Assembly (NCBI GenBank): GCA_937899905.1 | Contig: CALCCF010000112.1 | Coordinates: forward strand, 1 to 55,686 | DNA length: 55,686 nt | Direction: 5' to 3' | Source of the DNA: an uncultured Phycisphaeraceae bacterium | GTDB taxonomy: Bacteria; Planctomycetota; Phycisphaerae; Phycisphaerales; UBA1924 | Part shown: positions 30,757 through 33,746 of the stretch, piece by piece | How positions within the stretch are numbered: position 1 is the first letter of the stretch | Layout: every line of letters begins with the position of its first letter | Made by a program: the position numbers and the translations under genes | The notes under the pieces: model-generated | What the model saw: the letters and a program-made list of their open reading frames with translations, nothing else | What the model was told of the DNA's origin: nothing | Databases searched by the model: none

Positions 30757-31182
30757 ATGCCGGCAACGCTGACGATCCGTGACGAGGGGCTGGGGGCCGC
30801 CGAGGGCCAGGGCGTGGACATCTACGAGCTGACGGTGCCGGACGAGCGGCTGACGATCCGCGAGTTGATCCGCGAGCGGGTGTACCAGGAGGTCGACGAC
30901 CACAACCACCGGGCACGCGCGGGCGAAGACAATCGGTTCCGGGGGCTTGTCCGGCCAAATGACGTGGAAGCATCGCTCAACTCCGCGGCATCGCGCGAGA
31001 AGCGGACGCCCCGGCAGATCGACTGGAAGGCCCAGTTCGAGCTGGCGACCGAAGCGTTCGAGGACCGCCGCGTGCTGGTGCTCGTCGGCGAGAAGCAGGC
31101 GACCGATCTCGACGAGGTGTTCACCATCTCGCCGGGCATGGAGGTGACGTTCCTGAGGCTGGTGCCGCTGGTGGGCGGGTGA
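30757..31182 (+). CDS. Small protein with ubiquitin/ThiS/MoaD-like C-terminus ending in Gly-Gly
   Basis: The 141-residue protein has a GGGAGGA SD. Residues 1-47 read as a beta-hairpin plus helix (ATLTIRDEGLG, DIYELTVPDE, RLTIRELIRERVYQEVDD). Residues 104-141 read like the end of a beta-grasp fold: RRVLVLVGEKQATDLDEVF, then SPGMEV and TFLRLVPLVGG. In ThiS, MoaD and ubiquitin-like proteins the same order (strand, Leu-x-x turn, G-D/M-x-V, strand, Gly-Gly end) delivers the activated C-terminus. The 55 residues between (about 48-103) are charged and probably an insert. The last codon overlaps the GTG start of a DUF4132 gene by 4 bp (GTGA), so the two are coupled. No ThiF/MoeB-type E1, JAB peptidase, ThiG or MoaE is nearby. 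The fold assignment is inference from sequence pattern; the Gly-Gly end is directly visible. Confidence 0.6.
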   Translation: MPATLTIRDEGLGAAEGQGVDIYELTVPDERLTIRELIRERVYQEVDDHNHRARAGEDNRFRGLVRPNDVEASLNSAASREKRTPRQIDWKAQFELATEAFEDRRVLVLVGEKQATDLDEVFTISPGMEVTFLRLVPLVGG

Positions 31183-33746
31183 GCGAGCTCAGTACCGCAG
31201 AGATTGTCGAGCAGGCCGTTGAGCGATGCCTGGCGATGTACGAGCGCGTGGCGGGTACGACGGGCTCGGACCGCATTGGCATGATCCGAGCCATCGATGA
31301 GGATCCCAAGGCCCTCACTCGTGAGCAGCAGGTCCAGTTCATCATCGCAGCACTCCGGCACCCGCGGCTTGGCCCGGACATGCACGGGCCTCAGCACGGC
31401 GAGAGCCGAGTTGATTCGGCGGCGTACTTGCTTGAAGCGGTATGCGAGAAGTTGCTGACAAAGAAGCTGCCGCTGACGGCTGTCGACGCTCGCGCAATAC
31501 TGGAAACCGCGTTCACGAGGCGTACGTGGTTTAGTTCGTATGCGTGCGAGACGCGCTCTCTCGTGGCCCAACTCGGTCGTTGGCACACGGAGTTGATCGA
31601 GGACGAGGAACTCCAGGATGGGCTGCGCCGACTTGCGGAGGGACTCGAGCGTCGGAAGTCCGATGGGCAGGAGTTGGCACGGCGAGTCCGCAAGCTGCTG
31701 CCGACCGACCTCAAGCTGCCAATGGAGCCGGGCGAGGCGTGGAGCGATGCGGCGATTGCATACCTGTCGCCCCTCGATGAGTCAGTGCGCGTGACATGGA
31801 TCCAGTTGTTGCGGCACTGCATCGACGCTCCGGGAGGCAAGCCAACCAAGAAGTGGTCGTCGGCCGCGCGGGAGATGGTCTCTAAGCTCGGTGAAGACGA
31901 GGTGCGACGCTGCCTTTTCACATGGTTCCCATTGGTGGACGAGCCGCGAACGATCCCAAAAGGCCAAAACGATGCATGGCGAACCTTCTATGACCAACAC
32001 ATCGAAGTACCACACTCGGACATGCTTCGGGGCTTGTGCTGGATCGCGGCGTGGACCGAGTCTGCCGAGATGGCCCGCACGCTGACAGCACTGGCGATCT
32101 CGTGCTATCGCAAGCCGCCCGGGGAAACCGCGAGGCTGATCGGGCTCGGCAATGCAGCGGTATACGCGTTGGGTGCCATGCCGGGTACCGCCGCGATCGG
32201 CCAGCTGTCGCGCCTCCGCACCAAGGTCAAGTTCGGTACCGCTCAGGCCATGATCGGTAGAGCGCTCGATCGGGCCGCTGAGCGAGAGGGCATGCCGCGC
32301 AGCGAGATCGAAGAGATGGCCGTGCCCTCGTACGGGCTCGAAGCTGTGGGCGTTCTCCGCGAGGAACTGGGTGATTGCGAAGCTCAGATTCGCGTTGGTC
32401 ACACGCTGTCCGCTTCGTTGCATTGGACGAACAGCAAGGGCAAGACGGTCAAGTCGATACCCGCGAATGTGAAGCGTGACCACGCGGACCCCGTGAAGGA
32501 GTTGAAGGCGGCGCTGAAGGACATCCAGGTCATGCTGCCGTCCCAGCGGCTGCGGATCGAGCGCGGCTTCCTCGAACGCAGGCGTTGGTCCGTCGATGTG
32601 TGGCGTGAGCGATATCTCGACCACCCCCTCGTGGGCGTAATTGCACGCCGGCTTATCTGGATTTTTGACGATGGAAAGCAAAGGGTGGCGGCGGCTTGGC
32701 TCAGAGGTGATGCCGACGAGCCGCCGCACGCCGACGGCGAACTCGTGCGTGCCGACGGGCGGCCGTTCGAACCAGCCGAGGGTTCCTTGGTGACACTGTG
32801 GCACCCGATTGAGGGCGACGAAGTGGGAGCTGAGAGCGCGGTGCGCGATGACGTGGCAGCGTGGCGACAGTTCTATGAGAGCAACCAGATCTGCCAGCCC
32901 TTCAAGCAGGCGCATCGAGAGGTGTACCTGCTGACCGATGCCGAGCGACAGACGGGCGTGTACTCGAATCGATTTGCCGCTCATGCGGTGGAGCAATACC
33001 AGTTCAACGCGCTCGCACGCGAACGCGGATGGAAGCTGTCGCTGCAGATGGCGATAAGCGGAGACGAGGGTGTGCCCGCGCGACGGGATCTGAATGAATG
33101 GAACCTGCGCGTCGAGTTTTGGATCAGCGGGCTCGGCGATGCGCGGGATCCAGAGATGGTCGTGGGGTCTGGTTCATACCGCTTCCTGGCGACCGATCAG
33201 GTGCGGTTCTACAGCGCGGACCAACGCCTGCAAGATGACGACCCGATTCCGATCGAGCAGATCCCGCCGAACGTGCTCAGCGAGTGCTTGCGCGACGCTG
33301 ACCTGTTCGTGGGCGTTGCCAGCGTGGGCAACAACCCCGAGTGGTCCGATGGAGGGCCCGAGGGCCGGTTTCGAGACTATTGGAGCGCGTACAGCTTTGG
33401 AGAACTCGCCGAGAGTGCGAAGACACGGCACGGCATTCTCAGCCGGCTCACTTCGCGGCTTGAGATCGCCGACGCGTGCGAGCTGGATGATCGCTTCTTG
33501 ATCGTGCGCGGCACCAAGCGGACGTACAAGATCCACCTGGGCAGCGGCAACATCCTGATGGAGCCGGACGATCAGTATCTCTGTATTGTGCAGGGCAGGA
33601 CCGAATCGGGGCGCGGTGTGTTCTTGCCCTTTGAGGGCGACCGCACGCTGGCGCTAATCCTCAGCAAGGCGTTCCTGCTCGCCGCCGACGACAAGATCAC
33701 GGACAAGACCATCCTGAGCCAGATCGGCCGTTATCGCACACCTTGA
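31179..33746 (+). CDS. DUF4132 (MolR-like) domain protein
   Basis: The 855-residue cytoplasmic protein begins at a GTG inside the GTGA overlap with the ubiquitin-like gene. Residues 1-440 are mostly helical with HEAT-like character (for example RTLTALAISCYRKPPGETARLIGLGNAAVYALGAM, given here only as position about 304-340). The DUF4132 region starts near residue 470 with VWRERYLDHPLVGVIARRLI, followed by IFDDGKQRVAAAW, FEPAEGSLVTLWHP, and QICQPFKQAHREVYLLTDAE near 570. These are the signatures shared with E. coli MolR/YehI-type proteins. The C-terminus, GVFLPFEGDRTLALILSKAFLLA, is also typical. The biochemical function of DUF4132 is not established. The tight coupling to a Gly-Gly-ending small protein suggests they act together. 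It is convergent with a pseudopilin-like gene, with 16 bp overlap. Confidence 0.82.
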   Translation: MSELSTAEIVEQAVERCLAMYERVAGTTGSDRIGMIRAIDEDPKALTREQQVQFIIAALRHPRLGPDMHGPQHGESRVDSAAYLLEAVCEKLLTKKLPLTAVDARAILETAFTRRTWFSSYACETRSLVAQLGRWHTELIEDEELQDGLRRLAEGLERRKSDGQELARRVRKLLPTDLKLPMEPGEAWSDAAIAYLSPLDESVRVTWIQLLRHCIDAPGGKPTKKWSSAAREMVSKLGEDEVRRCLFTWFPLVDEPRTIPKGQNDAWRTFYDQHIEVPHSDMLRGLCWIAAWTESAEMARTLTALAISCYRKPPGETARLIGLGNAAVYALGAMPGTAAIGQLSRLRTKVKFGTAQAMIGRALDRAAEREGMPRSEIEEMAVPSYGLEAVGVLREELGDCEAQIRVGHTLSASLHWTNSKGKTVKSIPANVKRDHADPVKELKAALKDIQVMLPSQRLRIERGFLERRRWSVDVWRERYLDHPLVGVIARRLIWIFDDGKQRVAAAWLRGDADEPPHADGELVRADGRPFEPAEGSLVTLWHPIEGDEVGAESAVRDDVAAWRQFYESNQICQPFKQAHREVYLLTDAERQTGVYSNRFAAHAVEQYQFNALARERGWKLSLQMAISGDEGVPARRDLNEWNLRVEFWISGLGDARDPEMVVGSGSYRFLATDQVRFYSADQRLQDDDPIPIEQIPPNVLSECLRDADLFVGVASVGNNPEWSDGGPEGRFRDYWSAYSFGELAESAKTRHGILSRLTSRLEIADACELDDRFLIVRGTKRTYKIHLGSGNILMEPDDQYLCIVQGRTESGRGVFLPFEGDRTLALILSKAFLLAADDKITDKTILSQIGRYRTP

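Follow-up and report, generated by a model that had tools for sequence, protein, structure and literature searches.

The 55,686-nucleotide stretch of DNA analysed here (the window; contig CALCCF010000112.1 of assembly GCA_937899905.1, from an uncultured Phycisphaeraceae bacterium) encodes a small protein with a predicted ubiquitin-like fold and a C-terminal Gly-Gly, whose gene overlaps that of a large DUF4132-DUF7737 protein. We propose that this stand-alone beta-grasp protein, akin to MoaD, ThiS and ubiquitin, probably works as a carrier-type partner dedicated to the DUF4132-DUF7737 protein, which would make use of its tail. The basis of this two-gene module is the predicted fold, the operon overlap, co-inheritance, nearly matching copy numbers and, in the branch of the family to which the window protein belongs (branch A), a near-invariant Gly-Gly.

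The initial annotation, made from the letters of the window, had described a 141-residue protein ending in TFLRLVPLVGG and an overlap of its stop codon with the start of a DUF4132 gene. Both are borne out: the ending is that of the open reading frame (ORF) at 30757-31182, and its stop TGA (31180-31182) and the GTG start of the partner (31179-31181) overlap as GTGA at 31179-31182. In the partner, Pfam recognizes DUF4132 (E 3.6e-49, 167.5 bits) and DUF7737 (E 2e-40, 137.4 bits; cut-offs 27), and the small protein matches zero Pfam families at E up to 1 and nothing in PADLOC or PHROG at E up to 0.01. The features of the pair, with coordinates in the window, are the following.

30757..31182, + strand: gene of the small protein, predicted to be ubiquitin-like (beta-grasp); 141 residues, ATG start, branch A, end LVGG
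30856..30921, + strand: long helix alpha1, residues 34-55, with the conserved RELIRxRVYQEV stretch (from model and alignment)
30922..31023, + strand: insert between the halves of the predicted fold, residues 56-89, of variable length and lower model confidence, with a short helix at 69-77
31174..31179, + strand: C-terminal Gly-Gly codons, immediately 5' of the stop
31179..33746, + strand: DUF4132-DUF7737 partner gene, 855 residues, GTG start
31179..32321, + strand: N-terminal helical region of the partner, residues 1-381, a HEAT/ARM-like solenoid in the AlphaFold model (Z 7-9, weak for helical repeats)
32439..33032, + strand: DUF4132 domain, residues 421-618, with the QPFKQAHREVY...YSNRFA motif (Pfam)
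33417..33725, + strand: DUF7737 domain, residues 747-849 (Pfam), not detected in three DUF4132 proteins of the MolR/yeh type

The fold of the small protein was predicted with AlphaFold from 49 sequences, at a mean predicted local distance difference test (pLDDT) score of 80.6. The model runs from strands 3-12 and 21-27 through helix 34-55, the insert with its short helix and helix 90-102 to strands 106-110, 121-123 and 129-135, and ends in a loose C-terminal tail. In a Foldseek search against the PDB nothing matched at E 0.001 or below, and the top match, at E 0.015, was a chain of human molybdopterin synthase. Alignment with VIA-align gave Z 9.3 for MOCS2A, the MoaD-homologous chain of that enzyme (80 residues aligned, root-mean-square deviation (rmsd) 2.9), and Z 7.3-7.8 for many ubiquitin chains (71-75 residues, nearly the full length of ubiquitin, rmsd mostly 1.8-2.5), a range in which a Z below 8 by itself may reflect just a common structural arrangement. 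Searching the PDB by sequence, the window protein returned two matches, both with E above 1, and its 49-sequence profile none up to E 10. Topology, tail and MoaD match concur that the small protein is, in its predicted structure, a ubiquitin-like beta-grasp, as the initial annotation had supposed. The insert, which had been put at 55 residues, is shorter in the model, with about 34 residues from the end of helix 34-55 to the start of helix 90-102.

Relatives of the small protein are found in several phyla. With the window protein as query, 14 of 101 genomes (its own and those of relatives) gave a match; one in G084 (E 7e-4, 42 residues within a 1967-residue frame) was discarded as chance. The 14-row profile matched in 20 of 392 Planctomycetota genomes, where at most 10 candidates were scored per genome, so that small genes may be missed. 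A scan of contigs with a tail pattern and a mid-protein pattern yielded 300 stretches encoding a relative. The best 80 of these 300 were kept, and the tail and pairing counts below thus describe closer relatives; by record title, they belong to Actinomycetota (36), Planctomycetota (31), Cyanobacteriota (10), and Armatimonadota, Calditrichota and Omnitrophota (1 each). Further relatives lie on plasmid records, four from Deinococcus, one from Bacteroides and one from Novosphingobium, and a plasmid search for the small protein gave one record, from Nonomuraea. Among viral contigs there were 32 pattern matches and, by tblastn, 0 relatives.

A tree of 47 small-protein sequences separates two branches, A and B. 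The DUF4132-DUF7737 protein next to branch A genes has mostly 750-1140 residues (seven examined with Pfam). Branch B genes adjoin a protein of about 1600-1840 residues, which is DUF5724-DUF4132-DUF7737 by Pfam in both proteins run (L026, L208). The genome of the window carries one small gene of each branch. The branch B copy is found where contig C90 ends, and most of a matching partner, again at a contig end, is on C98; these contigs presumably join at the branch B pair.

The Gly-Gly end is strongly conserved in the branch of the window protein. Because one of the two scan patterns was the tail itself, only loci found by the mid-protein pattern were counted, and in these Gly-Gly stands at the stop in 20 of 20 complete ORFs, with one more cut by a contig end. 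With all 80 kept loci taken together, 78 end in Gly-Gly, one is cut and one (L102) was read by the script in a frame that breaks off early. Whole-sequence searches gave this end in 22 of 23 rows of branch A plus the deep rows L085 and L086. Since homologues in the genomes of relatives share the C-terminal end of the window protein, and since all 20 mid-pattern loci end in Gly-Gly, the observation goes beyond chance. In the 47-sequence tree, either side of the midpoint root has Gly-Gly ends, with the other ends scattered, for which reason a Gly-Gly end is probably ancestral. The two findings that the initial annotation had named as counting against it, a non-beta-grasp structure and absence of the Gly-Gly end and of the gene pair from relatives, were not what the analysis returned.

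Tail and partner are absent together in three Actinomycetota genomes (G522, G546 and G579), whose relatives of the small protein end in ASGS or ASAS and which have no DUF4132 or DUF7737 match; as the three form a single clade, this is one event, not three. In these copies (L224:7225-7620, L225:7502-7897 and L226:7602-7982) the last strand and Gly-Gly are replaced by ...ERSVVAS(G/A)S. The plasmid copy of Bacteroides finegoldii (L208:1344-1763) ends in LSGRLW, as if residues follow the tail.

By six-frame search, 74 of the 80 kept loci have a DUF4132 frame next to the small gene; in 69 it follows the small gene directly, and in five it lies upstream. Three of the six others (L097, L112, L141) lie at or near contig ends, and the stretches of the remaining three (L092, L114, L153) have no DUF4132, with a DUF7737 gene on another contig of the same genomes (G470, G471 and G469, respectively). 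Across the 392 Planctomycetota genomes, the small gene and DUF7737 occur together in 19, DUF7737 alone in five, the small gene alone in one and neither in 367 (Fisher 8e-27, relatedness ignored; both counts taken as one sample on the same genome handles). Three of the five DUF7737-only genomes concern a contig edge (G133), a 57-residue remnant (G378) and a match below cut-off (G163). Copy numbers of the two genes are equal in 27 of 29 genomes having both counts. These 27 comprise 18 of the 19 Planctomycetota with both, G464-G471, which were chosen for the small gene, and G568, and they include G469, G470 and G471, whose two genes sit on different contigs. Among the 101 genomes of the first search, DUF4132 occurs in 17 and the small gene adjoins it in 15; of the other two, G032 has it at the edge of a contig, and in G030 only its C-terminal part remains. 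In 149 Actinomycetota genomes, DUF4132 is present in seven (six above cut-off), DUF7737 in three, and the Gly-Gly protein in the same three, one of which, G465, is a sample centre picked for having it. Distance matrices of small protein and partner correlate at r 0.89 over 71 pairs (permutation maximum 0.21) and at r 0.59 over 37 pairs outside Actinomycetota (permutation maximum 0.22); this comparison covers 71 of the 80 loci (partner match over 550 residues, small protein at least 100 residues), and shared species history remains in r.

The arrangement of the loci varies in some cases. The DUF4132 gene stands upstream of the small gene at L083:1123-1554 and in L109, L134, L135, L150 and L159, and at L133:8460-13580 one small gene is followed by two successive DUF4132 genes.

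The partner can be delimited further. Two proteins of the yeh locus of E. coli and one of Sinorhizobium contain DUF4132, accompanied by WGR in two of the three, and none contains DUF7737. MolR of E. coli is the DUF4132 protein of the yeh type. The three adjoin genes of MoxR-type ATPase, DUF5682, VWA or SWIM proteins, and no small gene was found near them in the stretches read. The initial annotation had suggested DUF4132 as the constant partner; the adjacency stands, but the term is too wide, and in the genomes examined the partner is the DUF4132-DUF7737 kind, not DUF4132 as such. As judged from sequence comparison, a dedicated partnership of the predicted beta-grasp protein with its Gly-Gly tail and the DUF4132-DUF7737 protein is well supported.

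The AlphaFold model of the partner (pLDDT 80.7) is helical to about residue 381, with HEAT/ARM-like solenoid matches of Z up to 9.3. Its sequence profile gave nine matches in the PDB, the best at E 0.046, to designed or natural helical proteins. The C-terminal halves of 31 proteins were aligned (13 of branch A, 11 of branch B, four without small gene and three of MolR type). Residues H542, Q573, Q577, R580, E581, Y583, E589, R598, W618, R705, D706 and D708 are kept in branches A and B, as are G778, H786, S789, P817, D821, K830 and D842 within DUF7737, and most of the residues conserved in A and B are also kept in the four partners without small gene. At the thresholds used, the final 480 residues of 24 partners contain no cysteine common to both branches, which argues against a universal thioester ligase site in this part. 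A candidate for such a site, C802 of DUF7737, is invariant in 40 branch A alignment rows but not conserved in branch B, and was rejected. The pattern of conserved residues suggests a catalytic centre whose chemistry does not involve cysteine. In the literature searched, no biochemical function of DUF4132-DUF7737 was found, nor a link of DUF4132 to a ubiquitin-like protein in a search that covered few subscription journals and did not use DUF7737 as a term.

A member of the family has been studied experimentally in Deinococcus radiodurans. DRA0165 (SEP068184) belongs to branch B (hhalign E 7e-28), and with profiles built without it, hmmsearch in a five-sequence set gave 7e-22 (A1) and 3e-34 (A3). 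It ends in LAGG and lies two bases 5' of DRA0166, which encodes a 1626-residue DUF4132 protein. According to the accessible text of one study, a radiation/desiccation response motif (RDRM) lies upstream of DRA0165, DRA0165-DRA0166 form a putative operon, and mitomycin C raises the DRA0166 protein in the wild type, not in delta-irrE (PMC8533742). The accessible text of another reports that antioxidant measures rise on deletion of DRA0165, likens its predicted fold to MoaD and SAMP1, and states that it is found only in Deinococcus and has no RDRM (PMC9650054). The sequence contradicts both of these last statements as they stand in that text. The family extends beyond Deinococcus, the published RDRM of DRA0165 is present at L171:4723 (L171:4723-5209, NZ_OV024759.1), and RDRM-like sites precede the gene in all four Deinococcus records, with 1, 1, 1 and 2 mismatches. 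A functional link of DRA0165 to DUF4132 was not found in the accessible text of PMC9650054.

Of the yeh-type genes, molR of E. coli appears in accessible text among LexA-regulated or SOS genes (PMC3978071, PMC11039860). LexA-box and RecA-NDp (PafBC-type) motifs were scanned over 250 bases upstream of the 80 loci and returned just one partial LexA-like match and one reverse-strand match; the damage regulation seen in Deinococcus is therefore not extended to other groups. By analogy with DRA0165-DRA0166, the physiological role of the pair may lie in the response to stress or DNA damage.

Several observations weigh against a dedicated, tail-using partnership. G306 and G405, at 67% and 80% completeness, have a real DUF4132-DUF7737 gene without small gene nearby, and so do an Acetobacter plasmid and, for one of its copies, G599. 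G156 has the small gene only, a very distant relative (L086:1981-2421, end VAGG) without a DUF7737 match. The two genomes with unequal copy numbers are G599, with two DUF7737 and one small gene, and G116, where the second DUF7737 match is a 29-residue frame; G599 also carries two divergent DUF4132 frames without small gene nearby (L194:7582-13637), with a complete pair elsewhere in the genome. The tail itself varies: L024 is a branch A exception that ends in GRG, and branch B tails are Gly-Gly in 10 of 17, GA in four and GM, a single G and GRLW in one each, with the DUF4132 gene still adjoining, so that conjugation is not to be assumed. Fold-search matches of the partner are confined to residues 1-381, and residues 382-855, which contain both named domains, are barely covered. 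Finally, the validated binding partner of DRA0165 in pull-down is thioredoxin Trx1, and 157 proteins co-purify alike with its N- and C-tagged forms, according to the accessible text (PMC9650054).

How the tail is used can be explained in several ways, among which we rank a carrier-type use resembling MoaD-MoaE first, non-covalent docking second and tagging third. If the module were purely non-covalent, the beta-grasp protein would be a subunit or regulator that binds the DUF4132 protein, with the tail as a docking strand and no chemistry. Branch B retains its DUF4132 gene even where tails end in GA, GM, GRLW or a single G; this tolerance, the lack of an E1 found with the module and the reported binding of DRA0165 to Trx1 (PMC9650054) all agree with such a role. 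Yet the Gly-Gly in 20 of 20 and 22 of 23 cases (branch A or deep) is stronger than a docking strand seems to need, and relatives without it occur in three genomes that also have no partner; we regard the explanation as the lesser possibility. Tagging is what the initial annotation had in mind with a new ubiquitin-like system: a shared E1 (activating enzyme) would adenylate the small protein, which would be ligated to lysines, and the DUF4132-DUF7737 protein would be ligase or hydrolase. Here the branch A Gly-Gly, flush with the stop, fits well, and an E1 is at hand. The genome of the window (95% complete) has one ThiF-family E1 gene (L227:5432-6487), and PF00899, the ThiF family, is matched in every one of the 29 genomes searched, of which 25 have the pair and four do not, so that presence of an E1 does not discriminate pair-bearing genomes; an E1 is available in the genome, and none dedicated to the pair was found. 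Of 12 pair-bearing genomes, five have a Prok-JAB match and seven have none; the four genomes without the pair have none either, too few genomes to judge, and the genome of the window has no match.

Other points also speak against tagging. No ThiF, MoaE, JAB, E2 (conjugating enzyme) or RING gene is present among the 10 neighbouring genes examined in the window, which agrees with what the initial annotation had said of ThiF, MoaE and JAB. Neither an E2 nor a ligase or deconjugating enzyme turned up with the small protein. With a home-made gene caller, the 80 loci yielded no third gene of wide recurrence among the phyla; as the caller overlooks genes in GC-rich DNA and missed DUF4132 in several loci, an overlooked third gene is possible; the shared gene clusters besides DUF4132 are small, the largest with 13 loci, 11 of them from Actinomycetota. 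The partners have no cysteine common to both branches, and branch B tails often have no last Gly. The 157 co-purified proteins would suit tagging, but they are common to C-terminally tagged forms, which have no free Gly-Gly (PMC9650054). Altogether, tagging appears unlikely. Least probable, and disfavoured by us, is that the small protein serves the synthesis of thiamin or molybdenum cofactor as a divergent sulfur carrier of the ThiS/MoaD kind and has a DUF4132 neighbour by chance. The best VIA-align match is indeed a MoaD homologue, but Pfam ThiS is unmatched at E up to 1, and at E up to 10 for five relatives, the sole ThiS-family match in the genome is a separate gene on another contig, and the co-occurrence of the small gene is with DUF7737.

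We therefore return to the carrier-type reading and its possible mechanism. The tail of MoaD enters MoaE, and that of ThiS enters ThiG. By analogy, the flexible Gly-Gly tail may dock in, or be used by, the C-terminal DUF4132/DUF7737 part of the partner, and the N-terminal solenoid would bind a substrate or another protein. With less certainty, the branch A tail might be activated by a housekeeping ThiF/MoeB-type E1, with adenosine monophosphate (AMP) and possibly then as thiocarboxylate, and the branch B tail, which often loses its last Gly, may only dock.

The comparison with known systems shows both common and distinct traits. MoaD and ThiS have a flexible Gly-Gly tail, a small gene beside one larger partner and an E1 that is possibly shared and encoded elsewhere. 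The small protein is like MoaD/MOCS2A and ThiS in its predicted beta-grasp fold, its Gly-Gly tail and its place next to one larger partner. It differs from them (PF02597) in being unmatched by the ThiS model and in its helical insert; its partner, a helical solenoid in the model followed by DUF4132 and DUF7737, is unlike MoaE and ThiG, and no thi or moa gene occurs among the window neighbours examined. DRA0165 belongs to the same family as the window protein, but to branch B. Ubiquitin, SAMP, TtuB, Urm1 and bacterial conjugation operons have the fold and the Gly-Gly end in common with it (ubiquitin chains appearing among the fold matches). Bacterial conjugation operons have E1, E2 and JAB alongside the modifier, a set that was not found in the window locus, and the locus has no PADLOC match. 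The yeh locus of E. coli (WGR-DUF4132, DUF4132, MoxR ATPase YehL and DUF5682) shares the DUF4132 domain with part of the invariant residues; unlike the window pair, it contains neither DUF7737 nor, as far as the stretch was read, a small beta-grasp gene.

The surroundings of the pair are of mixed function. The ten neighbouring genes examined encode a PrmC-like methyltransferase, two GNAT acetyltransferases, a DEAD-box helicase, a hydroxyacid dehydrogenase, ClpS and four proteins without match. Four proteins were searched against PADLOC-DB, which covers known anti-phage defence systems, with no match at E up to 0.01, and a promoter scan of the locus found no promoter. The partner (window 31179-33746) matches phrog_20839 at E 2e-22, a family of unknown function; some phages therefore carry DUF4132-like proteins.

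A broader picture can be drawn, which we hold only tentatively. In a widespread, tail-dependent enzyme system, a Gly-Gly tail that the shared E1 of ThiF/MoeB type has activated, bearing sulfur or the protein itself, would be delivered to the DUF4132-DUF7737 half, and the partner could modify or repair a target held by the solenoid during DNA-damage or redox stress, from Planctomycetota to Deinococcus and Streptomyces. A predicted beta-grasp partner with a conserved Gly-Gly offers a testable handle on the widespread DUF4132-DUF7737 family. DRA0165, published as a Deinococcus-only peptide, now belongs to a multi-phylum family and is tied to its DNA-damage-induced operon partner DRA0166. A small ubiquitin-shaped protein and one large protein, co-inherited across several phyla, suggest an overlooked two-part system.

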